DNA from: Histidinibacterium aquaticum
GTDB taxonomy: Bacteria > Pseudomonadota > Alphaproteobacteria > Rhodobacterales > Rhodobacteraceae
Direction of reading: 5' to 3'
Assembly: GCF_008710275.1 (NCBI RefSeq)
Contig: NZ_VYQE01000003.1
Span: 1 to 64,000, forward strand
Length of the DNA: 64,000 nucleotides
A program made the position numbers and the translations under genes. The notes under the pieces are model-generated. The model saw nothing but the letters and a program-made list of their open reading frames with translations. It searched no databases and was not told where the DNA came from. Within the stretch, counting starts at the first letter, position 1. Each line of letters opens with the position of its first letter. Shown here piece by piece: positions 58 through 28,071 of the stretch.

Positions 58-122
58 GTCACCGCTCCGTTTTCAGAGCCGTGAATCACGCCGTACAGCG
101 ACGATCAATGGATCCTGACCCT

Positions 123-410
123 AACAGTTAACCGAAATCTTTCGGTTTTCGGTTGGCCGAAGCCAGGCATGCGGCATCCTCACCTCCTTAACAGCTAACC
201 GAAATCTTTCGGTTTTCGGTTGGCCGGAGCCAGGCATGTGGCATCCCCACCTCCTTAACAGTTAACCGAAATCTTTCGGTTTTCGGTTGGCCGGAGCCAG
301 GCATGCGGCATCCTCACCTCCTTGACAGTTAACCGAAATCTTTCGGTTTTCGGTTGGCCGAAGCCAGGCATGCGGCATCCTCACCTTCTTAACCGTTGAC
401 CGAAATCTTT
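123..410. repeat. 67-bp tandem repeat array, left part
   Basis: Units start at 123, 190, 257, 324 and 391, an exact 67-bp period. Each unit contains the hairpin-forming CCGAAATCTTTCGG followed by TTTTCGGTTGGCC and a GCATGCGGCATCC stretch. Units differ by only a few substitutions. The fifth unit is cut after AAATCTTT at 410 by the 11.5-kb element. The array resumes in register at 11915. There are no variable spacers, so it is a tandem repeat and not a CRISPR array. Confidence 0.95.
403..410. repeat. 8-bp target-site duplication, left copy
   Basis: AAATCTTT here and again at 11915-11922 flank the 411-11914 unit exactly. Eight base pairs is the duplication length known for IS1595-family insertions. 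A caveat is that every unit of the surrounding tandem array also contains AAATCTTT, so the duplication is deduced from the register of the array on both sides. Confidence 0.85.
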
Positions 411-440
411 GGGGGTGTCCGCAAACCGTGTTGGTCCGCT
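411..440 (+). repeat. left terminal inverted repeat
   Basis: Begins GGGGGTGTCCGCAAACCGTG and matches the inverted right end over 30 bp with two differences (positions 12 and 26 of the repeat). The following 441-646 stretch up to the OLD gene stop holds no convincing gene; short open frames there lack any family resemblance. Confidence 0.88.
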
Positions 441-646
441 ATACCGACCTTCCGGCCGTTCGCTGCGCGTGTATCATCTCCCGCTTCGCTGACGCGGCAT
501 CCTGAAGAGAGGGCGGAGAGCAGACATTCGCTGCGACTGCGCAGAATCTGTTCCAGAAGTGCAAAATCTGCCATTGAAGTGGTAGCAGTCCGAAGCGCCA
601 TGCTACGCAGCGCGCCAATGTCGGCTGTGCGCAGTAAGCGCCCTTT

Positions 647-2539
647 CTAAGCAAGCACCCTATCGATTAGCGATCCAAGCGTCTCGAACCTCACACCATC
701 GTCCCACGCAGCTGACATACATGCGGCGACAAATAGAGGATGCTTCTTAGTACCTCCGAGGTTCCCCACGGCATCCCGTCCCGCCTGATAGTAGTTTTCC
801 TTTTTCGCGCCAAACTCTTCTTCGAGCATGCGCTCGATGTCGAAGTGCCATGCCGTCAGATTGTCCTTTATGATGTGGGAGTCCGGGAAAGATTCCATTT
901 TTTCATGACCTGTAAGGGCAAGAATGGCATCATTATCTCGAATGTGCTCATCATGCGCTCGTTTATATTTGGCAGCATCTTTCTCGAGAAGCGACTTATA
1001 GACGGCATCACAATCGAAAATGACATGATGCTGTATTCCAAAACTCTTTGCTACAAGCAGCATGAGCGCCAGCGAGCTCTTGCCCTCGCATACGACGATA
1101 AACGATCCTGACTTTTGAAAATCCCTCTTCTTATCGGACAGTCGAAGGTAAGCCTCAATACAGGCGAGGTCTGAAATACCCTCAACTAAAACAACTCGCT
1201 CAGCGAAAAAAATTTCGTTGAATTTCGGCTGTATTTGAATGGCGAGTTTCGTACGTGCCTGGTCTTCATTCTGAAGTTTCTTGTTGAACGCCTTATTGTA
1301 TTCCTTGAGGACGCATTCAAAACTGGACTTTGAGATCTCCACCGACCCTGAGTCATTCCGGAACATTTTTATTCCGTCGAAATAGTCGACATCGATGAAG
1401 TATGGGCTGTGTGTGGTAACGAAGACTTGGGCATCAGCTTCCGAGAGCTCCATCAAAATCTCAGCAAGATGGCGGGCTTGAGGGGGATGTTGATAGAGCT
1501 CCGGTTCTTCGCATCCCAAGATCAGCGTCGGGCTAACTGTACTATCGACAGCCATCAGTTCCTGCAAAATTACAAGGAGAAAGGACCTTTGGAGTCCGTG
1601 TCCGAATTTCTCCACTCGATCACTGTACCCACGCTCTGAGAGCATGACCTGGGCAGTCGGAGCGTCAACTGATATGGATTTCTCATCTTGTTTCCAAGCA
1701 AGCTCAAGACCAGCATCGGTCATGACCGCAGACTGAAGTCGGTCAGCGAGGCGAGACTCAAGTCCCTCTAGGTGCTTTCGCTGACTATCCAACAGGCCCG
1801 AATATGCCTTGAAAGCCTCTTTTCTGATCCGCTCGAGCTCAGCGTCATAGTCCATTTGTGAGCGGATTGTGTGTTGGATCAGCTTGCCGAGATGCGAAGA
1901 TTTGCCCTCTTCGGATTCTGTGGCGGCCTCTTTCACGGCTGGGATATAGACCCAACTGACGTGGCGCTGGAACTTGTGCGCCCCTTTACTCACACCAAAG
2001 AACTCGGCGCCACTTGGCGTAAGCTCTTTCTCCTCGTCAGGCAAGGCTTCCTCGTAAGTGAGAAGAGCGGCCTCGCGCGCTCCATCATTGGTGGCGCTCT
2101 CAATTCCAGGGTGGTCTTCGCGCAGCTTGTCGAAGACCTGCTTCCGTGGGCTGGCTCCACTCGTCTCAAAAAAGCTCTTAAAGGGAGGGAAGACTAGACG
2201 CTCACCGCGTACCGTCTTCTTGAATGTCCCGTCCGGTTCTTTGGCGACTTCCGCTTGGACCACGAGCAGACCTGATCTGACGTAGTGACTGAACTCTTCG
2301 ATCGCCTCATCGCTGAGTTCATGGAATGTAATCTTTACGACAATAGGAAGACTGTCATCGCGTTGATGGAAGTCCTCTTCAGAGAAGTTACTTATTTCGC
2401 CGAAGAAGAGATTGAGCGCATTCAAGACCGTGGATTTCCCCGCACCGTTTGGGCCTACAAATGAACTAAATCGTACACAATCGATAGTTGACTTTTTGAT
2501 GGATCGGAAGTTTTCAATATGGATCTGCTTAATTCTCAT
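647..2539 (-). CDS. OLD-family ATP-dependent nuclease (AAA ATPase + TOPRIM)
   Basis: A 630-residue overcoming-lysogenization-defect (OLD) protein. The N-terminal ABC-type ATPase shows Walker A GPNGAGKST (29-37), a GHGLQRS signature (313-319), Walker B with LILGCEEPE (339-347) and the switch histidine in TTHSPY (375-380). A C-terminal TOPRIM nuclease domain follows, with VVLVEG (449-454, E453) and the metal-binding FDCDA (508-512). OLD proteins cut DNA and act against phage or in repair. The start has MRIKQIHIENFRS, the standard OLD beginning. It is last in a minus-strand run after the Mre11-like and Rad50-like genes, 54 bp downstream of the latter. No UvrD-like helicase follows, so this is not a Gabija pair. 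Confidence 0.9.
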   Translation of the reverse strand: MRIKQIHIENFRSIKKSTIDCVRFSSFVGPNGAGKSTVLNALNLFFGEISNFSEEDFHQRDDSLPIVVKITFHELSDEAIEEFSHYVRSGLLVVQAEVAKEPDGTFKKTVRGERLVFPPFKSFFETSGASPRKQVFDKLREDHPGIESATNDGAREAALLTYEEALPDEEKELTPSGAEFFGVSKGAHKFQRHVSWVYIPAVKEAATESEEGKSSHLGKLIQHTIRSQMDYDAELERIRKEAFKAYSGLLDSQRKHLEGLESRLADRLQSAVMTDAGLELAWKQDEKSISVDAPTAQVMLSERGYSDRVEKFGHGLQRSFLLVILQELMAVDSTVSPTLILGCEEPELYQHPPQARHLAEILMELSEADAQVFVTTHSPYFIDVDYFDGIKMFRNDSGSVEISKSSFECVLKEYNKAFNKKLQNEDQARTKLAIQIQPKFNEIFFAERVVLVEGISDLACIEAYLRLSDKKRDFQKSGSFIVVCEGKSSLALMLLVAKSFGIQHHVIFDCDAVYKSLLEKDAAKYKRAHDEHIRDNDAILALTGHEKMESFPDSHIIKDNLTAWHFDIERMLEEEFGAKKENYYQAGRDAVGNLGGTKKHPLFVAACMSAAWDDGVRFETLGSLIDRVLA

Positions 2540-2593
2540 ACAATCATCACATATTACAGTCTTCTATTGATGAGGCTGACTTGCTTGGCAGCC

Positions 2594-5500
2594 CTAGGAT
2601 TTGGTGAATTCGTGGATTGTTAGTTCATCTCCGCAGACCTTTCGCGCCAGTTCCACCACATGTTCATGATGGGTGAAGTACAAAGCCTGACCTTGCGTTG
2701 CGATCTGCTTCAGCAAGGTGAGGGCCGCCTCCGTACGCGTGTTATCAAATGTCTCCATAATATCATCAGAAATGAAGGGCAGCGTTGTCCCACCAGACCG
2801 GTATTGCCGGTATCCGGCCAGCCGAAGCGCGAGATACAGCTGGAACCGTGTTCCTTTGGACATCTCAGAGACCGAGATGAACCTCCCGTCCCGTCCTCGG
2901 AGAGCGAGCAGCAGCTCTTTTTGTCCATCTGCTTGAGTTTGAAGCTCCGAATAGGCGCCATTGGTAAGGGCTTTGAAGGCCGCTTCGGTATCTGCAAGCA
3001 TCCCACTGCGATGCTCGTCGCGATATTCGGCAAGCGCTTGGTCAGCTGCTAGGATACCGAGCTGTAGCCGCAGTGTCGATTTTGCGCGATCTTCTAGCTC
3101 GAGTAGCAGAGTCTGCCGCCGCTCTTCGAGCTGTGCAGGGACCTCATCTCCTCCGACCTTCTCAAGGGCGTCTTTCGCCGACCGAAGATCTCCGATTTTT
3201 TCCGAATAATCGGCCTCGGCACTCTCGAGTTCAGAACTCAGTGCTTCGATCTGCCCTCGGAGATCTACAAGGTCTTGATCAACAAGGATCGCACGCGCCT
3301 CATCAACGTCTTTCACACCAAGGCACTCTTCGATTTGGTCTTCGAGAGCGCGTCTTTTCCCACGCAGGCCGTCGGCCTTTTCGGCCGTCTCAATTGCCAT
3401 TACCAGAGAATCGAGGGTATTAATCTCCACGACATCCTCAAACGGTGTCGCGAGAGACTGCATACGTTCTAAGACTGCTGCGAGCTCCGCCTCGGCAGAA
3501 CGCACACTGCTGTTCGCAGCTTCGATCTTCTTTGAAATGGACTCAAAATCACTTTGACTGCGCAACGCGCTGTGAAAACGCCGACGCAAACGCTCAGCGA
3601 GAACGAGAGGTGCGGCGCTTTCGGTATCGCCAATGCGATTGGCTACATCGCCCACTGAGGCCGAAAACGCCTCGAAATCTTTCATTAAAGCTTCGATGCG
3701 CCGCTCAAGCTGGTCAAGCTGAGACAATTTGGAGAGGAGTTGCAGAAGTGTGGTCTTCTTCCACGCAAACTCATCCAAGTCGCGCAGCGCTTCAGGAAGC
3801 GAGATGGCTTCGCGCTCCCATGCCTGCGCCGCGGCAGCCTTCTCCCTCTCCAGGCGCAAAACCTCTTTTGTTCGACTTTCCGCTTCGTCTTTCGCTTCCT
3901 TAAGAGCTTCGCGATGTGCAGTCGCTTCCGCTTGGGACTTGGCAGCGTTCGTTATTTCGGCGCGCGCGGTTCGAATGAGTGACCTCAGCGCTCGGCCATC
4001 AGCTTCGATACCGAGCGCGTCTTTGAGCGCATCGGCAGCGTTAGAAACGATGCGCTCAGCCGCAGTCCGAGACTTCCTCTTGGTATCGAGATCGGTATGC
4101 GCGTCTTTAGCTTCGAGAAGGGCGCTGCGCCATCGCGGCAGGTCCCTTGGATCAAAAACCGTTGGCAGCCGAAGGCGCGCCATGAGGGCCTCAGCGGTTG
4201 TCGCTGATTTAGCGAGCGCTGCCTCCAACTCAATCAATTCCTCGTGTTTGAGCTCCACCAAGCGCGCGGCAGAGGCAACCTCGATTTCAAGCTCGCGAAG
4301 TCGTGCCAACCGCTCGGCGAATCCCAAGCGGGCCTCTTGAAGCGCATCATCTCTCTGAAGGGCCGTGTGGAACTCAGACGCGGTCTTTTTGTTGAGTGTC
4401 GAGAAATGCGCCTCCCAAAGAGCGTCGCGCTCTTGGCGGGCACCCTTTGCCTCCTCATCAACAGAAGCTGCATTATCCTTTTCGAATTCCTTAAGGCGGG
4501 CGCTGAGACGGGCGTGCTCCTGGCGCGCGTCTTTAAGTTCGCGTTTCAGAGTCGAGATGCCTTCAAGTTGGTCACCCCAATGCGCTGAAAGGCGTTCGGC
4601 TTCGCTCTCGGAAAGCGCAGTCGATCCCAAGTCCTCCGCTGCGCCCTGCCAGGGTTCCAAGGCCAGAAGTGCTTTCTCGAAGCGGCGCTCCGTTGAGTCG
4701 ACTTCACCTAACGCTATTTCCAACCGGGCAAGCTGATCCTCTGGCTCGAGCTCAGACAGGAGCGCTTCCAGATCCACTTCATTCGTCTCAGAAGTGACAA
4801 CTGACCCGGTCTCCTGTATCTGCGCCAGGCGCGATAGGGACCTAGCTTCTTCCTCCCTAGCCGCCGTAAGTCGCTTTGCAAGATCCGTATAGTTCGTTGC
4901 CATGTTTTCGAGCTGACTCAGTTTGGCCTCGGGGATCCGACCGTCCTCCGGTTTCTCAAGGCCCAAGTCGCGGACGGCGTCGGCGAGCTCTTCCGAAAGC
5001 CCTTCACGCTCTGCTGTTCGCTTGGGGAGATCTTCTTCAGCGGTCTGCGCTCGAGATCTGGGGAGGTCGAGGAGGACTGTGAGCTCATCGGAGATCTCCA
5101 GCACCGCCGCATCCATGGCCAATCCGTCGCGTGCTTTTTGATGCTCCTCCAGCTGAATGCGCGCCAGCCGGAGCTCAGTCTCCACTTCGACCTCTTTGAG
5201 CTTGAGCGCCTTCGCTTCCTCCAGGGCGTCGTGCGGGACAACCGGGTAGGCCTCCAGACCTGAGATTGTTGCTATTGTCTCATCGAGCTGCACCAAGAGC
5301 GGTATTGCTTCGATCATTGCTCCGAGGCGTGTCCGCCTTTGGAACAGTGCGTCACGAGACGCTTTCGACGTAACTAGGATATGTTCTGCAGCGTCGCGGA
5401 CCTCCTTCAAGCGTCGATATGCGCTCGCCGGAACATCAATGTCTCTAATTTGATCATTAAGCGCTTTAAGCTTTCTCTTGGCCTCCGCGAGGATCGTCTT

Positions 5501-6043
5501 CTTCGCGCGAGGCTTATGAAATAGATCCACCTCATTGCGGGCTGCCTCAAGCACTGAGCCCAAATCCGAGAGCCCAGCCGCTGCCGAGAAAAGGAGTTCG
5601 CCAAGATTTCCCTCGCTCGCGAGGATGTCCTCCCCCCCCTCTTCAATTGTGACGTCATTCAGCGAGAACATTGCCCGGTACTGATCACGGTCTATGCCAT
5701 CCAGGGCATGCGCGAGGATCGTTGGGTTGATCGGATCTCCTTTAGGAGAAATCAGATCTCCTTTGTTACGCTTTATCCGGACAAGATCGACGACGCCTTG
5801 GTCGAGCTCCAGAGAGGCACCGATCCGCATAGTCTCATAGTCGTGAAGGAAGTTGTACTTGCTGCGGGCTGGGATCCCAAAAAGGAGGTCCAGGTAGGCA
5901 TCAAAGGCGGTCGATTTGCCGGCCTCGTTTGGCCCGAAAATGATGTGAAGATCTGGTTTGCTCTCCCCCTTCGGACCGAAGTCGAGGGAGAAGTCGGTGA
6001 AATGTCCATATCGGATGAGATCAAGGCGCCGAAGCCTCACCAA
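2594..6043 (-). CDS. Rad50/SbcC-like (YhaN-type) coiled-coil ATPase
   Basis: An 1149-residue SMC-like ATPase. The N-terminal lobe carries FGPNEAGKST (Walker A, about 36-45), then come roughly 800 residues of charged coiled coil rich in Glu, Arg, Ala and Leu, and a C-terminal lobe with SEMSKGTRFQLYLALRL (signature) and LPFISDDIMETFD (Walker B). The NEAGKS variant and the MVRLRRLDLIRYG beginning place it near YhaN rather than canonical SbcC. It should pair with the adjacent Mre11-like nuclease as an ATP-gated DNA end-processing complex; the nuclease stop overlaps its start by 7 bp, indicating translational coupling. The sequence is visibly less GC-rich than the chromosome beyond 16 kb. Confidence 0.9.
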   Translation of the reverse strand: MVRLRRLDLIRYGHFTDFSLDFGPKGESKPDLHIIFGPNEAGKSTAFDAYLDLLFGIPARSKYNFLHDYETMRIGASLELDQGVVDLVRIKRNKGDLISPKGDPINPTILAHALDGIDRDQYRAMFSLNDVTIEEGGEDILASEGNLGELLFSAAAGLSDLGSVLEAARNEVDLFHKPRAKKTILAEAKRKLKALNDQIRDIDVPASAYRRLKEVRDAAEHILVTSKASRDALFQRRTRLGAMIEAIPLLVQLDETIATISGLEAYPVVPHDALEEAKALKLKEVEVETELRLARIQLEEHQKARDGLAMDAAVLEISDELTVLLDLPRSRAQTAEEDLPKRTAEREGLSEELADAVRDLGLEKPEDGRIPEAKLSQLENMATNYTDLAKRLTAAREEEARSLSRLAQIQETGSVVTSETNEVDLEALLSELEPEDQLARLEIALGEVDSTERRFEKALLALEPWQGAAEDLGSTALSESEAERLSAHWGDQLEGISTLKRELKDARQEHARLSARLKEFEKDNAASVDEEAKGARQERDALWEAHFSTLNKKTASEFHTALQRDDALQEARLGFAERLARLRELEIEVASAARLVELKHEELIELEAALAKSATTAEALMARLRLPTVFDPRDLPRWRSALLEAKDAHTDLDTKRKSRTAAERIVSNAADALKDALGIEADGRALRSLIRTARAEITNAAKSQAEATAHREALKEAKDEAESRTKEVLRLEREKAAAAQAWEREAISLPEALRDLDEFAWKKTTLLQLLSKLSQLDQLERRIEALMKDFEAFSASVGDVANRIGDTESAAPLVLAERLRRRFHSALRSQSDFESISKKIEAANSSVRSAEAELAAVLERMQSLATPFEDVVEINTLDSLVMAIETAEKADGLRGKRRALEDQIEECLGVKDVDEARAILVDQDLVDLRGQIEALSSELESAEADYSEKIGDLRSAKDALEKVGGDEVPAQLEERRQTLLLELEDRAKSTLRLQLGILAADQALAEYRDEHRSGMLADTEAAFKALTNGAYSELQTQADGQKELLLALRGRDGRFISVSEMSKGTRFQLYLALRLAGYRQYRSGGTTLPFISDDIMETFDNTRTEAALTLLKQIATQGQALYFTHHEHVVELARKVCGDELTIHEFTKS

Positions 6044-7284
6044 GGTTGCTCCGCACCGCCGGCAAGCATACGCGCGACAATATCCTGGACGCCTTCGTCG
6101 AGAAGGTGTGCGACTTCACGAGCTTGATCATCTTCGGTTTGCCCAAACGCGCTTCGGAGCTCCGGTGGCAGATCCCCAATCAGATCCTCTGCCGCACTCC
6201 GCGCGCGCTTCAAAAAGCTTGGCTGCGCGGCAAGGTCTTTCATGAGAGCGCTTAATTCTTTCCGAGGATCTTCGCCCTCACCAACGATCGACGGCGGGAC
6301 AAATTGCTGAACGATCTTGTCGATCCATACGACCCCAGAGGCGCGAGCAAGGTTTGTCACGCTCTCCAGAAGGAGGTCAGCGTCGCGCCTCAGGCGCCAG
6401 GCGAGCGGGGTTTCCCCGCGGAGCTCCAAGCGCAATACGACATGCTCCGAGGATGACTGCGCTACCAGCTTGATGACCTCTTCGATGGCGCTCATGGCGT
6501 CGCGCCAGTCGCTGACAGCGTCGAGCAAAACGTCCGTGCGAACAAACTCGATGTTCGACGTGATGCGCTCCTCAAGCGAAGCAACCCCGTCCTCAACCGA
6601 AACGAGGGTCACGGACTTTGGGCCAGCCTCGCCGATATCGCGGCCTTGGGGCATGCCTGGCATGACAATATGAGGCGTTTCGCGATGGACGGTTCGAACA
6701 TGCACATGGCCCAAGGCCCAGTAATCGTACCCATGCGTTACAAGATCATTTGGGCTGCAGGGTGCATAGTTGTCGTGACCTGCCGCTCCGGCGAGGCTCG
6801 TGTGCAAAAGCCCGATATTGAACAAGCCAGGGACAGGGGCCTTGTATTTCGGCACTAGGCTCTCAGGTGCCTGCGGCTTGGCAAAGCTGACACCATGAAT
6901 CGCAACGCCCTTTTCGGGGAGCTCCACGGTCCCACCATGACCGGTGAACACTTCGACATTGGGTGGGAGCTCGAGTTCACGGGTCAAGACGCTCTCCGCG
7001 TCGTGGTTGCCGCGGATCATAAAGACACTGATCCCCGCCTCATTGAGCCGCTCCATCTGGCTCACAAGGAAGGCGGCTGTCTTCATGCTCCGCATATCGC
7101 CGTCGTAGAGGTCGCCGGAAATCAGGAGAGCGTCGACCCCTTCGTTCACGCAAATATCGACGATGCGCTCGAGCGCCCGACGTGTAGCATTGCCGACAAT
7201 CTCCGAGAGTTCCTCATCCTTGAGCGCTAAGCTCTTTAGAGGGGCATCAAGATGGAGATCAGCCGTATGAACAAACCGAAACAT
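6037..7284 (-). CDS. Mre11/SbcD-like (YhaO-type) DNA exonuclease
   Basis: A 415-residue calcineurin-like metallophosphoesterase of the DNA repair exonuclease group. All motifs are present: HTADLHLD (D9, H11), SGDLYDGD (D58), RGNHD (91-95), the HTSLAG histidine (H161) and GHVH (192-195). Such nucleases degrade DNA ends with Mn2+ and are gated by a Rad50/SbcC partner, here the next gene. It heads the three-gene minus-strand cluster that ends in the OLD nuclease. The gene starts at an ATG with MFRFVHTADLHLD, which aligns with the usual family start. Confidence 0.92.
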   Translation of the reverse strand: MFRFVHTADLHLDAPLKSLALKDEELSEIVGNATRRALERIVDICVNEGVDALLISGDLYDGDMRSMKTAAFLVSQMERLNEAGISVFMIRGNHDAESVLTRELELPPNVEVFTGHGGTVELPEKGVAIHGVSFAKPQAPESLVPKYKAPVPGLFNIGLLHTSLAGAAGHDNYAPCSPNDLVTHGYDYWALGHVHVRTVHRETPHIVMPGMPQGRDIGEAGPKSVTLVSVEDGVASLEERITSNIEFVRTDVLLDAVSDWRDAMSAIEEVIKLVAQSSSEHVVLRLELRGETPLAWRLRRDADLLLESVTNLARASGVVWIDKIVQQFVPPSIVGEGEDPRKELSALMKDLAAQPSFLKRARSAAEDLIGDLPPELRSAFGQTEDDQAREVAHLLDEGVQDIVARMLAGGAEQPW

Positions 7285-7692
7285 AATCCCCTAGCCCTCA
7301 TAATTCCTCTTAATATCTTTTCACTATGCGAGCGAAAGCGGCCTTCACACAAGCCGCGAATTGAGACGAAGGAGAGGCTGTTCAGATGGCCGTGAACTGG
7401 CCCCCGGTTCGACAGGCCGCGGCGCAGCGATAGGACGCTTCGGGCAACGGCAGCATTGGGCCGACCACGTCGAGCCGGATCATGCTGCAAGCACGAAGCA
7501 GGCTGCCATCAGCGCAGTCAGTATGGGCTCTCCGCTGTTTCATGCATCAAGGCCTGCTTTGCCGTCGTTCGCAACAGCGCCCTTCCATACGAAAAGGAAT
7601 GAAGCGACCCGCCTCGGGATTTGACCGAGCGCAAAGTCGGTCCTGATTTTGCGCGCTAACCTTCTTTCGATCATGGGCGGGGAGGTTTCGGC
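7285..7692. other. 408-bp divergent intergenic region
   Basis: Separates the minus-strand nuclease cluster from the plus-strand thioredoxin-chaperone cluster and must hold both promoters. Base composition changes near 7380, from AT-richer nuclease-side sequence to GC-rich chaperone-side sequence, suggesting the two cargo blocks have different origins. A possible -35-like TTGACC lies at 7622-7627. No gene with family resemblance is seen. Confidence 0.5.
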
Positions 7693-8121
7693 GTGAAACT
7701 GGCGTGTCTGGTTTGCGGTCAGGGCAACAGGGTTCCCCGCGAACGGCTGGGCGCAGGGCCCAAATGCGGCGGCTGTGGCGCGCCCTTGTTGAGCGGTGCG
7801 ACCCAGGACGTGTCCTTCGAGAACCTGCAAAAGGCGGCGCGCATGGATGAATTGCCGCTCATCGTCGATTTTTGGGCGTCTTGGTGCGGACCATGCCGGA
7901 TGATGGCGCCGGAATTTTCCAAGGCAGCAGGTCTGCTGAAAGGGCAGGCCCGCTGCGCCAAGCTGGACACGCAAGCCTATCCGCAAGCCGGGCAGGTCCA
8001 TGGCATTCGGGGCATTCCGTTGCTGATCGCGTTCCAGGGCGGGCGCGAGATTCAGCGGCAGGCCGGCGCGATGTCAGCGCGGGATATCGAGGCCTGGGTC
8101 CGCCGGGTCGCTGCGGCATGA
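7693..8121 (+). CDS. trxC: Thioredoxin with N-terminal zinc ribbon (TrxC/Trx2 type)
   Basis: A 142-residue thioredoxin 2-type protein. It has an N-terminal zinc ribbon (C5, C8, C25, C28) and the redox-active WCGPC (64-68) in a thioredoxin fold with the cis-proline in GIRGIP. It would reduce disulfides in cytoplasmic proteins. The start is GTG at 7693, supported by the GGGGAGGT ribosome-binding site seven bases upstream. It is the first gene of a plus-strand group with DnaJ and CbpM, an arrangement reminiscent of thioredoxin in mobile heat-resistance/protein-quality-control loci, though the larger chaperones of those loci (ClpK, FtsH, small Hsps) are absent. Confidence 0.93.
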   Translation: MKLACLVCGQGNRVPRERLGAGPKCGGCGAPLLSGATQDVSFENLQKAARMDELPLIVDFWASWCGPCRMMAPEFSKAAGLLKGQARCAKLDTQAYPQAGQVHGIRGIPLLIAFQGGREIQRQAGAMSARDIEAWVRRVAAA

Positions 8122-8229
8122 GATGGCAATGCGCAGCACAAGACCGCCGACGGCGGTTGCGCGCATCCTGCGTTTTCCGCGCTCGGAGGCGAAGCGGCAT
8201 CGCAGCATTGCATGGTGGGAGGTTATGCG

Positions 8230-9153
8230 ATGGCGGATGATCCATACAAGGTTCTGGGCGTGGACAAGGGCGCCACGCAGGACGAGATCAAGAAGGCCTA
8301 TCGAAAGCTTGCCAAGACGCTGCACCCGGACCTGCACCCCGACGATCCCGGGAGGAAGTCGGAGTTCCAGGCCGTGTCTGCGGCCTACGATCTGTTGCGC
8401 GATCCGGAGAGGCGCAGGCGTTTCGATGCCGGTGAAATCGACGCGCAAGGCCACGAACGAGCCGAGCGTCAATTTTACCGCGACTATGCGGGCCGGCCGG
8501 GCGCCGAACGCTATCAACCGGGCGCGTATGAGGACTTGTCGGACCTGTTCTCCGATTTCTTCGCAAGGCGTCGCCGCGGTGGCGGAGAAACCTACGAGCA
8601 AAGCGTTCACGCCCGTGGGCGCGATATGCGCTATCATCTCGAGGTGGATTTCATGGATGCCGCTCGCGGCGCGAAGCGAGCCATCACGATGCCCGACGGC
8701 AAGGCGATCGAGGTGTCGATTCCTGCCGGGCTCGACGATGGCCAGACGCTGCGCCTGCGCGGCAAGGGTGGGCCGGGGATCGGCCAAGGTCCGCCCGGCG
8801 ACGCGTTGATTACAGTTGGCGTACGCCCGCACCCGGTGTTCACCCGCAACGGCGACAATATCGAGATGGAGCTTCCCGTAACCTTCGACGAGGCCGTTCT
8901 GGGTGCGAAGGTCGATGTGCCGACGATTTCGGGCACCGTTGCCATGACGATCCCCAAGGGCGTCTCATCGGGGCGTCAACTACGTTTGAAGGGCAAGGGC
9001 TTTCCGGTGGGAAAGGCCACGCATGGCGATCAGATCGTGCGTATTCAGATCGTGCTGCCGGAGAAGGTGGATAAAGAGATGGAGGAGATCGCGAAACGCT
9101 GGCGCGCCTTTCAGAGCTTCGATCCGCGCGAGACTTTGCGGAGGACGATATGA
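8230..9153 (+). CDS. cbpA: CbpA-type DnaJ co-chaperone
   Basis: A 307-residue class B J-domain protein. It has an N-terminal J domain (about 1-70) with the Hsp70-activating HPD (32-34), a short Arg/Gly-rich linker, and two C-terminal substrate-binding beta domains with no zinc-finger, which distinguishes CbpA from DnaJ. It stimulates DnaK and delivers clients. The ATG at 8230 is preferred over an in-frame ATG at 8212 because a GGGAGG ribosome-binding site lies just upstream. Its end overlaps the CbpM start (ATGA at 9150-9153), so the two are translationally coupled, and CbpM is the known modulator of CbpA. Confidence 0.94.
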   Translation: MADDPYKVLGVDKGATQDEIKKAYRKLAKTLHPDLHPDDPGRKSEFQAVSAAYDLLRDPERRRRFDAGEIDAQGHERAERQFYRDYAGRPGAERYQPGAYEDLSDLFSDFFARRRRGGGETYEQSVHARGRDMRYHLEVDFMDAARGAKRAITMPDGKAIEVSIPAGLDDGQTLRLRGKGGPGIGQGPPGDALITVGVRPHPVFTRNGDNIEMELPVTFDEAVLGAKVDVPTISGTVAMTIPKGVSSGRQLRLKGKGFPVGKATHGDQIVRIQIVLPEKVDKEMEEIAKRWRAFQSFDPRETLRRTI

Positions 9154-9482
9154 GTTACGATGAACGCACCGTCGTGTCGCAGGTCGAGCGCCTGACCATC
9201 AGGGAATTGCGCAGCTGGGTGCGCGAAGGCTGGGTGCGGCCCGCGCATGGCGAGCGCGGTCCGTTCTTCGACGACCTCGATATCGCGCGCGTCCGCCTGT
9301 TGTGCGACCTGAGGAAGGACATGGCGATTTCGTGGGATACGATCCCGGTGATCCTGTCACTGATCGACCGCTTGCACAGATCGCGGCGCGAGTTCCAGAT
9401 GTTGCAGCAAGCGATCGACGAACAGCCCGAGGATCTGCGGCGGGAGGTGCTAAAGCGGTACGAAAAGATACGAAAACCGTGA
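9150..9482 (+). CDS. cbpM: Chaperone modulator CbpM
   Basis: A 110-residue MerR-like helix-turn-helix protein of the CbpM family. CbpM binds the J domain of CbpA and blocks its stimulation of DnaK. The sequence begins with a strand-helix region containing TIRELRSWVREGWVRPA, typical of CbpM, followed by helices and a charged C-terminus (REVLKRYEKIRKP). The 4-bp overlap with cbpA makes stoichiometric co-production likely. The family can look like a MerR DNA-binding regulator, but the cbpA neighbourhood supports the chaperone role. Confidence 0.92.
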   Translation: MSYDERTVVSQVERLTIRELRSWVREGWVRPAHGERGPFFDDLDIARVRLLCDLRKDMAISWDTIPVILSLIDRLHRSRREFQMLQQAIDEQPEDLRREVLKRYEKIRKP

Positions 9483-9564
9483 GGCCGGGCGCGCCCTTGC
9501 TGACCCGTGGCGCGGTTTCCCGGTATTGTCTTGGTGGCAGTGTGCATCTGTCGGGGAGGAGATG

Positions 9565-9861
9565 ATGTACAACGATCTGGATCGGCGTCGGCGCGTTCTG
9601 ATTATGACTTACCAGCGCTATACCGAGGCGGACCTGGCCTGGCGGCGCGCCTGCGCGACCGCGCGAGGCTGGTTCCCGGAAGGCGATAGACCGCCGCGCC
9701 GGATGATCGGGGGGCCGGAATCCCCCGTGCGGAAGATCTATGACCGAAGGCAACGCGCCTTGGAGCAGTTCATGGCCGCGGAGCGCAAGCTTTCGCAGGC
9801 AAGGGCAAGACCGGACCGCAAGACGCCAGGAATGCTCTTGCTGGAGTTTTCCAGCGCCTGA
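9565..9861 (+). CDS. Small conserved hypothetical protein
   Basis: About 98 residues starting MYNDLDRRRRVLIMTYQRY, rich in Arg and helical, with a conserved-looking WFPEGD and MIGGPESPVRKIYDRR segment. No catalytic motif, signal peptide or membrane segment is seen. The ATG at 9565 is favoured because a GGGGAGGA site ends five bases upstream. It follows cbpM on the same strand, so it is probably part of the same transcription unit; a proteostasis role is inferred from position only. Confidence 0.65.
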   Translation: MYNDLDRRRRVLIMTYQRYTEADLAWRRACATARGWFPEGDRPPRRMIGGPESPVRKIYDRRQRALEQFMAAERKLSQARARPDRKTPGMLLLEFSSA

Positions 9862-9949
9862 CGCGCCGGTCGCGCAATCGGTGCCTTCGCGTGGCTTGCC
9901 CCGTTATCCTTAACCAGTCTGGCATGGAATGAAATGACAGCACCGTGTC

Positions 9950-10192
9950 GTTGGTCAACACAAGGCCGCGGCCTCTCACATGGTCGCCAATATCCCGAGG
10001 GCCAAGTACAGCGTCCTCGGGGCACTGCGAGGGCGGCTATACCACTGCGCCGATACGGTTTTCGTGATCGACGAACATGGCAGGTTGATGGGGCTTGTCA
10101 GGATGAACGACCTCTTCGGCGAGGACGCCAAAACGACCGGCGACATCATGGAAGAGCGGCACGAGGCCGTTCTGCCGGAAGACGATCAGTAG
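9950..10192 (+). pseudogene. CBS-domain fragment (MgtE-like transporter remnant)
   Basis: The frame ending at 10192 reads AAASHMVANIPRAKYSVLGA and then ADTVFVIDEHGRLMGLVRMNDLFGED, which is a CBS domain as found at the N-terminus of MgtE-type magnesium transporters. Only one CBS unit remains, ending at VLPEDDQ just where a second CBS repeat would be expected; no transmembrane part follows. There is no good ribosome-binding site. It is best read as a truncated remnant. The stretch 10193-10415 beyond it shows no further recognisable coding sequence. Confidence 0.6.
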
Positions 10193-10415
10193 CATACTCG
10201 ACCTATCGCCAACGGCAGCTATGGGCCGTCCTTGACTGCGGCGAGACGACCGCACAGGGGTCAGGAATTGATATCTGCTGCGCGGGGGCGTCGGTGGCGG
10301 CGATGCGCAGAAGGACCGGAATGTGCGCGTCAGTTGCACGGCGCCGTCGGCACGACGACCCGTCGGCTACCAGCACCACCGGCGAACCAGTTCCGCTGCC
10401 GAGCGTTCCTTGAGT

Positions 10416-11195
10416 ATGGAACTGAATTGCGAACGTCACGGTGCAGGACCACCCTTGCTCCTGGTTCATGGGCTGGGTGGAAGCGTCCGGTCTTGGGACA
10501 GCATCCTGCCGATGCTTGCTCGCGGACGCGAGGTCGTGTTGGTCGATCTGCCTGGGCACGGGGGGTCTCCGGCGCTTACGGGGCGCCAGACGATCGCGGC
10601 CCATGCGGACGCGCTCGAGCACTTCATCGACCGTAAAGGGCTCGCCGGCGTCGATACCGTCGGCAGTTCTGTCGGCGCGCGGCTGGTGCTGGAACTGGCA
10701 CGGCGCGGCATCGGCGGCCACACGGTCGCTTATGATCCAGGAGGTTTCTGGCGCGGCTGGGAGACCGCGTGGTTCCGCTCCACGCTTGCCGCCTCGGTCC
10801 GGCTGGTGCGCCTCCTGCGGCGGCGCATTCCGGCGCTCTCGCACAGCCGCGCCGCGCGGGCCGTTCTGCTCGCGCAACTGTCGGCGAGGCCCAGCGCCCT
10901 CGATCCCCTGCTGGTCCGGAACGAGCTGACGGCCATAGCCGAGACAGACGTGTTCGACGCGATGCTGCGTGAACTGGCGCGTGGTCCGTTGCAAGAGGGG
11001 ACCGCCACACCTCCGGGCCGCGTGACGATTGGCTGGGGCCGTCAGGACCGTCTCCTGCTGCCACGTCAGGCGGAGCGCGCACAAGCGGCCTTCCCCACCG
11101 CGAAGTTGCACTGGTTCGAGCGGTGTGGCCACTTCCCGCAATGGGACCGCCCGAAGGAGGCCGCAGAGGTCATCTTGAAAACGATGGCGAGATGA
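10416..11195 (+). CDS. Alpha/beta hydrolase
   Basis: A 259-residue alpha/beta-hydrolase. It has the oxyanion region LLLVHGLGG, the nucleophile elbow GSSVGA, an acidic residue in WGRQDRLL and the catalytic histidine in RCGHFPQWDRP, so the Ser-Asp-His triad is complete. A lid-like, Arg-rich helical segment lies between strand 6 and the acid. The substrate cannot be assigned. The ATG at 10416 (MELNCERHGAGPP) is chosen because the fold begins directly after it; the ribosome-binding site is weak. It is the last intact cargo gene before the right end of the transposon. Confidence 0.85.
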   Translation: MELNCERHGAGPPLLLVHGLGGSVRSWDSILPMLARGREVVLVDLPGHGGSPALTGRQTIAAHADALEHFIDRKGLAGVDTVGSSVGARLVLELARRGIGGHTVAYDPGGFWRGWETAWFRSTLAASVRLVRLLRRRIPALSHSRAARAVLLAQLSARPSALDPLLVRNELTAIAETDVFDAMLRELARGPLQEGTATPPGRVTIGWGRQDRLLLPRQAERAQAAFPTAKLHWFERCGHFPQWDRPKEAAEVILKTMAR

Positions 11196-11836
11196 GGCGC
11201 GGATAACGGACGTGACCTCTCACGCGCGGTCCAGCTCCTCGAGAACCTGCATGATGAGACGGAGACAACTCGAGCGGATGCTTCCTTTGTCCGCTCCGCC
11301 GACCTTCACCTTCGAAAATGATGCGCGAGGGATGAATGGCTGATATTGTGAAGCTGCATCGCAGCGATCCACCATCAAGCCAATGGCAGGTCTGGGCCGA
11401 TCGCGGCAATGCGATTGTAGCTGCCCATGCAGAGCCGACATGACGCGCCGTGGTCAGTTTGGGCTCGGAGCCGACTTTGCGACACCTTGGATACGATGCG
11501 CGGACAATATCCGACGGGCGCACCCCTGCCATCCGCACCTCCAGCCACCGTATGTAGCCATCGAGTTTCCTCGTCGCCGGCCCGCAGAAGGGCTTGATGA
11601 ACCCTTTGTAGCCGGCGTGCCGCGCATCATCTTCAGCCTCTTGGTTGTGAAGTCTTCCCATCGTCGCCGCAGAAAGGACACTCGTGTTCTTGGCTTGTCC
11701 GCATTCCGATCTCCGAGATCGCCTCCGTCTTTCGCCGGAGATCACCGATTTTCGTCTGTGCGTCCTCGATCTGGGCCGGATTCAGGTCGTCGAGGGCATC
11801 GAGAAAACGGCGAAAGTCGTGATGTAACAAGGGCAT
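11196..11836 (-). pseudogene. Decayed IS1595-family transposase
   Basis: The frame starting at 11836 reads MPLLHHDFRRFLDALDDLNP and reaches CPFCGDD, matching the start and first zinc-ribbon half of IS1595-type transposases, then stops at 11633. In another frame 11610-11524 encodes KGFIKPFCGPATRKLDGYIRW, the conserved C-terminus of the same family. The catalytic core between them is gone, so the gene carries a large internal deletion plus frameshifts. The rest (to 11196) is unrecognisable. Its start faces the right inverted repeat, the usual position for an IS1595 transposase. A 35-codon open frame at 11336-11443 (+) was not considered real. Confidence 0.75.
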
Positions 11837-11884
11837 CCTCCGCGGGAAAAGCGGAGTAAGATAGGCCCTTTCGGGTTACGACGA

Positions 11885-11914
11885 AGCGAACCAACACGGT
11901 TTACGGACACCCCC
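11885..11914 (-). repeat. right terminal inverted repeat
   Basis: Inverted copy of 411-440 with two differences over 30 bp. On the minus strand it begins GGGGGTGTCCGTAAACCGTG at 11914. It is followed on the outside by AAATCTTT (11915-11922) and the continuation of the 67-bp tandem array. Confidence 0.88.
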
Positions 11915-12000
11915 AAATCTTTCGGTTTCCGGTTGGCCGGAGCCAGGCATGCGGCATCCTCACCTCCTTAACAGTTAACCGAGATCTTTCGGATTTCTGT
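11915..12000. repeat. 67-bp tandem repeat array, right part with target duplication
   Basis: Starts with the right copy of AAATCTTT (11915-11922) and continues the interrupted unit in exact 67-bp register; the next unit starts at 11970 and fades out after CGAGATCTTTCGG. Joining 410 to 11923 restores an uninterrupted array of about six units, which shows that the array existed before the transposon arrived. From 12001 to 12145 nothing recognisable is seen. Confidence 0.9.
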
Positions 12001-12145
12001 GAAGGTTGCGCCGGGATTGGGCGGAACATTCACATCTTTACTTTCGGTCATGGTCCATGCTTCGGACCTGCTGGTGATCGACCATCCGAGATGACGGAGA
12101 CAGGCTGAAACTCGATGTGCTGCCTCCGAATTTCTTGATCAGCGT

Positions 12146-13182: not shown

Positions 13183-13698
13183 CTAGTCTGCTGAGTGACT
13201 GGCCAGCAATAAATTGAAACGGTCGTTCACGAAAAATCGTAAGCGTCCGGGTAGGACCGCAGCTCGGGCGACAGCCTTGGCCTCCTGGGCGAGCGGTGCC
13301 CAGTTCCGCGGCAACAGCTCGTCGAGGCGGTTGATCATGTGATCGCCGATCCGGGTCAGGATGTCAGCGAGGTAGGCTTCGGGATCATGGCCGCTGAGCT
13401 TTCCACTCTCAATGATCGTCATGGCCTCCGCGAGGGCCTCGCCTCCGGCATCACCCCCCGCGAAGAGCCAGTTCTTCCGGCCGATCACCACGGGCTTGAT
13501 CGCGCGCTCGGCCGGATTGTTGTCGATGGCCACGCGGCCATCCCCCAGGAAGAGCGCGAAGGAGGGCCAGCGGCGAAGCGCGCAGCGGAAGGCCTTGGCC
13601 AGTGCGCTCTTGCCGGAGACACGGCCGAGCTGGGTTTCCGCCCATGCCTTGGAGTTCTCTGTCAGCAGGCGCGTTCGGGCCTTGTCCGAGAGATTTCG
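13183..13698 (-). pseudogene. IS66-family transposase, C-terminal remnant
   Basis: From about 13698 to the stop at 13183 the frame encodes the end of an IS66 TnpC: SGKSALAKAFRCALRRWPSF, then DGRVAIDNNPAERAIKP (with the catalytic glutamate region), KNWLFAGGDAGGEALAEAM and YLADILTRIGDHMINRLDEL. The N-terminal two thirds are missing. Although the same frame stays open upstream to 14088, the residues there do not resemble IS66. The junction falls at the palindrome 13709-13750. The intact IS66 genes tnpA and tnpB are absent. Confidence 0.85.
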
Positions 13699-13708
13699 GT
13701 TAGCCGGA

Positions 13709-13750
13709 GATGGACAGTAATACCCCAAATATGGGGTACTACTGTCCATC
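13709..13750. repeat. 42-bp near-perfect palindrome at the IS66 break
   Basis: The arms GATGGACAGTA and TACTGTCCATC enclose TACCCCA/TGGGGTA; two of the 21 pairs mismatch. It sits exactly where IS66 homology ends. It could be a tiny inverted-repeat element or a relic of two abutting IS ends. Confidence 0.75.
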
Positions 13751-14123
13751 GCGTCCGGCAGCACCTTGGCGTCAAGGAGCAAGACTGACCGACTGACTTC
13801 ACGGATGCGTCCTGCCGGGACGCATGGCCAGGATCGTGCCGGCCCTCTGAAACGCGACGCCTCTGAAAGACGCAAGGACGATGACCGCCTGGACCACTCC
13901 CACCGATCCACCATACGACGCCAACATGCAGCGACCCAAGCGTTCGACTGCGGAGAGAACCCGGAACCCGGCGAAGACGCAGACCTGAAACTGATGCCTT
14001 GACCAGTGCGATGATAGAACTTCAGAGGGGGCATTCCACCGAAAGAATGTTCAATCCTACAACTGAGAAACAAGGAATAGCTCCACATCTTCTCTGGTCT
14101 TCACCTGGCCTCCAATCCGCAAT
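13751..14123. other. Unassigned 373-bp stretch
   Basis: No recognisable gene. On the minus strand the frame continuing from the IS66 remnant reads VLLLDAKVLPDAMD near the palindrome, but upstream residues have no family resemblance. It is probably a fragment of another decayed mobile element. Confidence 0.4.
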
Positions 14124-27309: not shown

Positions 27310-28071
27310 ATGGACCTGCCCCGGAACACGCTGAAGGAGGCCCTCGCCGCGGGGCGCAAGCAGATCGGGCTCTGGGTCTCCGGGGCCAGTCCCGATTCGG
27401 CCGAGCTCTTGGCCGGATGCGGCTACGACTGGCTGGTCTTCGACCTCGAACACTCGACGACCTCTCCCTCGGAGGCCGTGGCCCTGCTGCGCGCCGCCGC
27501 GCCCTACCCCGTCTCGCCCGTCGTCCGGCCGGGCTGGAACGATCCGGTCGAGATCAAGCGCCTGCTCGACGGCGGCGCCCAGACCATCGTCGTGCCCTAC
27601 GTCCAGACCGCCGAGGAGGCGCGCGCGGCGGTCAGGGCCCTGCGCTATCCGCCCGAAGGCATCCGAGGTGTCTCCGGCATCACCCGCGCCTCCCGCTACG
27701 GACGGATCGCGGACTACGGCCGCCGCGCCGCCGAAGAGCTCTGCCTGATCGTGCAGGTCGAGACGGCCGAGGCGCTCGGACAGGTGGAGGAGATCGCGGC
27801 GGTCGACGGCGTGGACTGCGTCTTCATAGGGCCCGCCGACCTCGCGGCCTCCATGGGGCGCATCGGCGAAGGCTCTCACGCGGAGGTGCGTGCGGCCGTG
27901 CTCGAAGGGATTGCCAGGATCAGGTCAGCGGGCAAACCGGCGGGCCTGCTCTCGCTCGACCAGAGCTTCCTGCGCGAGGCGGAGGAGGCCGGCGCGCTCT
28001 TCCTCGGCGTCGATATCGACTACGCTCTCCTGCAGCGCGCGGCTTTGGCCCGGCGGGAGGAGTGGCGCTAG
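27310..28071 (+). CDS. HpcH/HpaI-family aldolase
   Basis: A 253-residue class II (metal-dependent) pyruvate aldolase-type protein. Motifs: FDLEHSTTSP (catalytic His/acid region), PVVRPGWND, GAQTIVVPYVQTAEEA, IVQVETAEAL (metal-binding Glu) and FIGPADLAASMG (metal-binding Asp). The family cleaves 4-hydroxy-2-oxoacids such as HKHD or 2-keto-3-deoxy acids to pyruvate and an aldehyde. The ATG at 27310 follows AGAAGGAGACG. Its stop overlaps the end of the GntR gene on the other strand by 4 bp. Confidence 0.9.
   Translation: MDLPRNTLKEALAAGRKQIGLWVSGASPDSAELLAGCGYDWLVFDLEHSTTSPSEAVALLRAAAPYPVSPVVRPGWNDPVEIKRLLDGGAQTIVVPYVQTAEEARAAVRALRYPPEGIRGVSGITRASRYGRIADYGRRAAEELCLIVQVETAEALGQVEEIAAVDGVDCVFIGPADLAASMGRIGEGSHAEVRAAVLEGIARIRSAGKPAGLLSLDQSFLREAEEAGALFLGVDIDYALLQRAALARREEWR

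Follow-up and report, generated by a model that had tools for sequence, protein, structure and literature searches.

What kind of unit brought a nuclease cluster and a chaperone cluster together at the beginning of a contig of Histidinibacterium aquaticum (Alphaproteobacteria, Rhodobacteraceae)? The window, that is, the whole stretch of DNA analysed here, comprises the first 64,000 nucleotides of contig NZ_VYQE01000003.1 (assembly GCF_008710275.1), and both clusters lie in an 11,504-bp element at positions 411-11914. We consider it likely that this element is a passenger-carrying member of the IS1595 family of insertion sequences (IS), that its two modules were acquired independently and moved as one 11.5-kb unit, and that it is now non-autonomous.

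The limits of the element were defined by its ends and by its target site. The left terminal 30 bp were identical to the reverse complement of the right terminal 30 bp at 28 of 30 positions, and this pair ranked first among 33 inverted repeats spanning positions 300-12050, where it was stretched to 50 nt as the flanks pair too. The ends were bordered on both sides by the direct repeat AAATCTTT, which matched at 8 of 8 positions. The insertion interrupted a tandem array, for which Tandem Repeats Finder (TRF) gave a period of 67, 4.3 copies and 94% matches. When the flanks were joined computationally, the interrupted 67-bp unit resumed in register and was followed by a partial unit. Near-identical inverted ends of 30 bp, a perfect 8-bp repeat outside them, and continuation of the array in register had been described in an earlier note on this DNA, and all three were borne out. 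Duplications of 8 bp, preferably in A/T-rich DNA, are described for ISApl4 of the IS1595 family in a passage of PMC12561309. With up to three mismatches, a 25-base end pattern occurred at these two sites only in the H. aquaticum genome (3.9 Mb, 11 contigs), and the reversed control gave 0 matches. Contig C11 of the same genome carries near 27415-27452 a diverged and unoccupied paralogue of the right flank, which consists of a single partial unit (38 bp aligned) and contains the target octamer. A search for the 67-bp array in the remaining four genomes of the genus gave no match; hence, no orthologous empty site was seen there. The 67-bp units, at 122-410 as well as after 11922, include the palindrome ACCGAAATCTTTCGGT. 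The window starts at the start of contig C5, and its positions 1-123 match transposase genes of IS5 (ISPso2-like), likely reflecting an assembly break at the contig start.

The transposase remnant at the right end is spread over three frames, which matched residues 1-59, 186-202, and 291-332 of the 332-aa intact transposase of a relative (locus L071, genome G265). The identity was 92% over residues 1-59, and residues of about 60-185 and 203-290 were missing. Four intact relatives with the same ends reached 118-130 bits on the NCBIfam profile NF033547 (IS1595 family transposase; cut-off 75 bits), with 121.5 bits for L071. The earlier assignment of a decayed IS1595-type transposase to the right end therefore stands, with the position of the remnant corrected (Table 1). 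The right 255 bp of the element were 92.5% identical to the L071 element and matched the transposase-side ends of relatives. Beyond the 30-bp repeat, the left end matched passenger-side ends (61 bp with 85% identity in L055, 58 bp with 88% in L068) and also lone ends of unassigned side (59 bp with 90% in L070, 126 bp with 75% in L061). Since the left end is of the passenger-side type and the right end of the transposase-side type, we favour the view that this is one element with one transposase. Judged from the kinship of the transposase, the 8-bp duplication, and the ends common to intact members, the element belongs to the IS1595 family. With the middle of its transposase lost, it is probably non-autonomous now and stranded.

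The same ends also occurred in other genomes of the family. With up to two mismatches, the end pattern was present in 25 of 394 genomes, including that of H. aquaticum, and the reversed control gave 0 matches in every listed genome. We fetched 29 end-bearing loci (L043-L071), which cover all 24 other genomes. Both ends and a duplication of 6-8 matching positions out of 8 (8/8 in six loci, 7/8 in five, 6/8 in two) were present in 13 loci, with elements of 551-3620 bp. Six loci had paired ends without such a duplication, and in ten all ends pointed the same way, in some cases close to the edge of a contig. Nine of the 13 complete relatives had an intact or broken transposase beside one end, L066 had a heavily decayed one, and three had none. 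Their passengers included MFS transporters (L052, L068), a DUF4440 protein (L062), glyoxalase-like proteins (L059, L060), an AHSA1 protein (L066), a LysR, a GST, and a cupin-like protein together (L055; cupin judged by eye), and orphan open reading frames (ORFs). The cargo of the window element was in none of them. At the 29 loci, four weak matches to its cargo proteins were detected (one thioredoxin-like, three hydrolase-like; 31-40% identity). Those in L048 and L060 lie outside the paired-end span, and those in L056 and L057 lie 8-12 kb from a lone end, where the limits of the element are not known. The search for end pairs that had been suggested earlier, thus, recovered the same ends and frequent passengers, but only shorter complete relatives with other cargo. 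In the sense that other cargo is found elsewhere, the ends do vary independently of the cargo, which the earlier note had regarded as an argument against its view; a second such argument, ends unlike those of IS1595, did not apply. By comparison of its ends and length, the window element is a passenger-carrying IS1595 element more than three times as long as any complete relative found here. Three short cassette-like elements, L049 (616 bp), L054 (551 bp), and L063 (838 bp), shared these ends and showed 7-8/8 duplications; each had a single main ORF and no transposase.

Table 1. Features of the element and its insertion site (window positions).
Feature	Position	Strand	Basis
Insertion target: 67-bp tandem array of 4.3 units, continued after 11922	122..410	.	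TRF, in-register continuation
Left copy of 8-bp target duplication AAATCTTT	403..410	+	flank comparison
Left terminal inverted repeat; likeness to passenger-side ends of relatives reaches ~470	411..440	+	sequence comparison
OLD-family ATPase/TOPRIM nuclease, 630 aa; Walker A, Walker B, TOPRIM-like motifs	647..2539	-	family profiles, motif reading
AAA_27 (YhaN/Rad50-like) ATPase, 1149 aa; Walker A, signature-like motif, no CxxC	2594..6043	-	family profiles, motif reading
Mre11/SbcD-like phosphoesterase (YhaO-like, Metallophos), 415 aa; five phosphoesterase motifs	6037..7284	-	family profiles, motif reading
Divergent intergenic region between modules; G+C step	7285..7692	.	G+C profile, repeat search
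Thioredoxin with N-terminal zinc ribbon, TrxC-like (below TrxC equivalog cut-off), WCGPC	7693..8121	+	family profiles, motif reading
J-domain protein of DnaJ/CbpA type with HPD; no match to zinc-finger families	8212..9153	+	family profiles, motif reading
MerR_2/CbpM-like protein, far below CbpM equivalog cut-off	9150..9482	+	family profiles
OrfX, 111 aa, no Pfam/NCBIfam match at E 0.001	9526..9861	+	family profiles
CBS-domain-like fragment, probably gene remnant	9980..10192	+	E=0.012, below cut-off
Alpha/beta hydrolase, 290-aa ORF (start uncertain), GxSxG	10323..11195	+	family profiles, motif reading
IS1595-type transposase remnant, three frames	~11494..11836	-	match to intact relative
Right terminal inverted repeat	11885..11914	-	sequence comparison
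Right copy of 8-bp target duplication AAATCTTT	11915..11922	+	flank comparison

The left module comprises the genes for a YhaO-like, a YhaN-like, and an OLD protein; the yhaO-like gene overlaps the start of the yhaN-like gene by 7 bp. The motif names assigned in these three proteins are those that we take to apply. An adjacent phosphoesterase and AAA ATPase with their motifs present identify a Mre11-Rad50 pair of the SbcCD/YhaNO type; the YhaO-like protein scored below every NCBIfam cut-off for SbcD/Mre11. The OLD protein matched OLD-like_TOPRIM and AAA_15, and the PADLOC models followed in the order Old, AriA, GajA (among the best 25 of 118 matches). Its closest solved structure was 6p74, which a section of PMC10568477 presents as the Class 1 OLD of Thermus scotoductus. 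Relatives of YhaO (E ≤ 1e-70) were present in 46 of the 394 family genomes, including that of H. aquaticum. YhaN adjoined YhaO in all 20 other YhaO loci that were fetched, with only partial alignment of YhaN in some. The closest pair, in G378, showed 73% (YhaO) and 53% (YhaN) identity and had no OLD. An OLD of the window type was present in none of the 20 loci. At E ≤ 1e-60, OLD relatives were restricted to H. aquaticum itself among the 394 family genomes, and at E ≤ 1e-50 they were found in four of 376 genomes of the class, again including H. aquaticum. A scan of genome contigs with OLD for close relatives yielded just two archaeal loci, matching 45 residues. This module may serve in DNA-end surveillance or defence.

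The module on the right was partly conserved elsewhere. Relatives of OrfX (E ≤ 1e-5; loci L112-L140) were present in 30 of the 394 family genomes, including that of H. aquaticum, and the genes for DnaJ and CbpM directly preceded orfX in 5 of 19 fetched loci. One of these five, L163, showed thioredoxin (Trx), DnaJ, CbpM, and OrfX in the same order, followed by an alpha/beta hydrolase without a tblastn match to the window hydrolase. Trx lay beside OrfX in two further loci, L165 and L172, and in L179 Trx-DnaJ-CbpM lay about 4 kb off on the opposite strand. DnaJ-CbpM pairs were also located on two plasmids, one of Paracoccus, with Hsp20/HtpX genes around the pair, and one of Aestuarium, with FtsH/Hsp20/DegQ/GrpE/HtpX genes around it. 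The proteins of this module may assist protein folding as well as redox repair when the cell meets heat or oxidation. The cargo named in the earlier note (Mre11, Rad50, and OLD together with Trx, DnaJ, CbpM, and a hydrolase) was right in kind; the CBS-like fragment between OrfX and the hydrolase was added here.

For the origin of the whole we propose the following course. A transposase whose gene points inward from the right end would have acted on the 30-bp ends, and through a cut staggered by 8 bp the element would have entered the 67-bp array at an A+T-rich spot. The slot between the left end and the transposase would have taken up two modules, independently of each other: the YhaO-YhaN-OLD operon, and a divergent stress operon Trx-DnaJ-CbpM-OrfX, perhaps including the hydrolase. 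This second operon is similar to a section of an alphaproteobacterial stress island. With the loss of the middle of its transposase, the element was probably left stranded. All 11.5 kb presumably moved in a single event, and both operons are presumably expressed.

Alternatively, the array took up a passenger element of only 1-4 kb, like its relatives, and recombination or other elements brought in the modules afterwards. We regard such growth in place as possible, but clearly less probable than movement of the complete unit. It would agree with the small size of all 13 relatives with a duplication and with the step in G+C content between the modules (50-59% for the nuclease genes, 61-68% on the chaperone side; 68% for the window after position 12000). 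A 22-bp intergenic repeat at three internal borders (7445-7466; 10210-10231, 86%; 11381-11402, 77%) could have served recombination; a further exact copy of its 19-base core is present on contig C4 of the same genome (87831-87849). However, this repeat is weak evidence, because with one mismatch the core had a single match in G002 and another in G003, and its reversed control likewise had a single match in each of G002 and G004. Furthermore, no internal second set of ends was seen, and the left subterminal 60 bp and the right transposase side were both kept.

The earlier note had also suggested that the nuclease and chaperone clusters might share a function. In such a system the genes would cooperate, for example, by DnaJ, CbpM, and Trx folding or restraining a defence nuclease. 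The modules do share the divergent intergenic region, for which the junction 7285-7700 gave no match in plasmids and of which a part of 7404-7530 is repeated on contigs C4 and C8 of the same genome. Relatives of YhaO and OrfX occurred, in separate places, in eight other genomes (G042, G186, G229, G242, G249, G348, G358, G387), as compared to about 3.3 expected for independent occurrence (45 and 29 of 393; uncorrected for genome size). In G018, YhaO-YhaN was found directly after dnaK-dnaJ (L149; contig C26, 2149-10199; dnaK identified by eye). The old gene of Salmonella is reported as important under temperature stress in a passage of PMC6755086. However, each module recurs elsewhere, wholly or partly, and both together were present at none of the fetched loci: the chaperone module of the window was in 0 of 20 YhaO loci, and a gene of the nuclease module in 0 of 19 OrfX loci. 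The G018 pair is an ordinary dnaK-dnaJ, seen in one of 20 loci and spotted after the fact. Considering also the different G+C content and the divergent transcription, we concluded that a joint function is unsupported, and the modules are taken to act separately; a single functional system appears improbable. The combination of cargo was not found elsewhere in the searches made here. A composite transposon with one IS1595 copy on each side, of which only the outer end survived on the left, would show similar near-identical inverted ends but was rejected as highly improbable, since past the repeat the left end resembles the passenger side, and not the transposase side, of relatives that have a single transposase, so that two IS copies are not recognizable.

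Several observations weigh against an IS1595 element that moved as a whole. A second copy of the 11.5-kb unit was found neither in plasmids nor in five genomes of the genus, where only short partial matches occurred. At 16 of the 29 end-bearing loci there was no second end with a duplication of at least 6/8, and a looser re-search of 12 of them was likewise fruitless. The profile PF12762 gave no transposase match in the H. aquaticum genome. As this profile also missed the L071 transposase and scored that of L052 below cut-off (19.6 bits; cut-off 27), it was dropped as a test for a helper transposase. Because it is insensitive to this subgroup, the absence of a helper from the genome was judged from the end search only. 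With regard to the chaperone module, the DnaJ-CbpM pair of a Roseivivax plasmid had no chaperone neighbours and that of a Sinorhizobium plasmid had GroEL/GroES about 2 kb away; neither lay in a stress island of the kind described above.

How does this element compare to known systems? Siguier et al. reportedly referred in a title of 2009 to IS1595 elements bordering on transposons, and the passenger-carrying kind is said to be called tIS. The window element is like tIS in end type, 8-bp duplication, transposase family, and passenger slot, but it differs by its size, its eight genes, and the loss of the transposase. It shares with mobile insertion cassettes (MIC), as described in an excerpt of PMC3281130, the ends and a cargo without a working transposase, but differs in keeping a transposase remnant and in being far larger. 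In Tn7560 (5765 bp; a passage of PMC12561309) an IS1595-family transposase is likewise tied to the movement of several genes, but Tn7560 has two whole ISApl4 copies, whereas the window element has one end pair and one remnant. Among OLD proteins, Class 1 is a single gene according to part of PMC10568477 and isolated in 542 of 837 according to part of PMC6755086. The ATPase-TOPRIM nuclease is common to the window OLD, Class 1, Class 2 (Gabija, with the UvrD-like GajB), and Class 3 (retrons); the window OLD differs by its accompanying Mre11-like/Rad50-like pair. Neither a UvrD-like GajB nor another helicase was detected among the eight cargo proteins scanned. Lamassu also has an SMC/Rad50-like protein, reflected by a weak LmuB match (E=1.6e-5), but no LmuA or LmuC match was among the cargo matches listed (for the OLD protein, the best 25 of 118), and a Mre11-like protein and OLD were present instead. 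Similarity to tLST was limited to Trx and to the related DnaJ-CbpM pairs that lie with Hsp20, HtpX, and others on two other plasmids; the tLST core dna-hsp20-clpG, as given in a section of PMC8290217, was absent from the cargo proteins.

We also inspected the surroundings of 17 further OLD genes for Mre11-Rad50 genes; three came from the class search, and 14 were plasmid matches chosen non-randomly. An adjacent Mre11-like/Rad50-like pair was present in three of the 17, which corresponds to three of the six alphaproteobacterial ones; no control rate is available for these numbers. Roseibium has YhaO-YhaN-OLD-nSTAND3, G672 has a second Mre11-Rad50 type followed by OLD, and plasmid pTAV4 of Paracoccus versutus has OLD followed by this second type. 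No such pair was seen in the other 14; for ten of these the judgement came from the names of annotated genes up to 7 kb away (incomplete gene table), and for L216, L217, L220, and L226 from ORFs read by eye. The OLD proteins of Roseibium and P. versutus (plasmid loci L075 and L218) were sisters in the tree, yet they are accompanied by differing Mre11-Rad50 types. In the tree of 19 OLD proteins, five of them linked to Mre11-Rad50 (one being the cut long-branch fragment L233), this label was ungrouped, with four changes and 198 of 500 shuffles as low. Since the label did not cluster, the linkage is not one inherited trait. Only one of six plasmid loci with the second Mre11 type had an OLD-like gene nearby, one gene away, which counts against linkage to OLD. 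A second-type pair on a Methylocystis plasmid (L236, 6001-13027) was followed by SIR2-like (SIR2_2) and HerA-like genes, a defence-like setting, and in L235 an AAA_13 protein adjoined a second-type pair.

OLD proteins cut DNA, and P2 OLD kills recB and recC mutants (a passage of PMC6755086). According to part of a preprint (PMC12407980), RecBCD denies Gabija, a relative of OLD, access to DNA, and Gabija becomes licensed when RecBCD is blocked. On this background, Mre11-Rad50-OLD might tentatively be viewed as a recurrent mobile system for DNA-end surveillance, in which OLD would attack free ends and the Mre11-Rad50-like complex would bind or process ends, sparing self or handing over non-self; by analogy with these systems we find this idea worth stating but doubtful. 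A title-level view of the literature on OLD with Mre11 revealed no title about a Mre11-Rad50-OLD cassette, which does not show absence from print, and neither Mre11 nor Rad50 nor SbcC is mentioned in the main text of the OLD review PMC10568477. OLD nucleases are known as cargo of Tn7-like elements (a passage of PMC8649781), so it is not unprecedented for transposons to carry defence genes.

Outside the element, the window contains a tandem repeat at 39249-40352 (period 369, three copies, 75% matches) and an ORF at 13183-14088, part of which has several matches in genome G003. We take the end of this ORF to resemble an IS66 transposase.

If the proposed surveillance function were true, the protector would travel with the nuclease, so that the cassette could enter hosts with a different end-processing complex, and in H. 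aquaticum it would ride on an IS1595 element beside a stress operon. The pairing of OLD with Mre11-Rad50 would offer a direct route to test how OLD discriminates between self and foreign DNA ends. The element itself indicates that a unit of eleven kilobases with two operons can lie between IS1595-type ends, so that this family, to which little attention is paid, may transport more than single passenger genes. By their end pattern, such elements are readily detected in this bacterial family.

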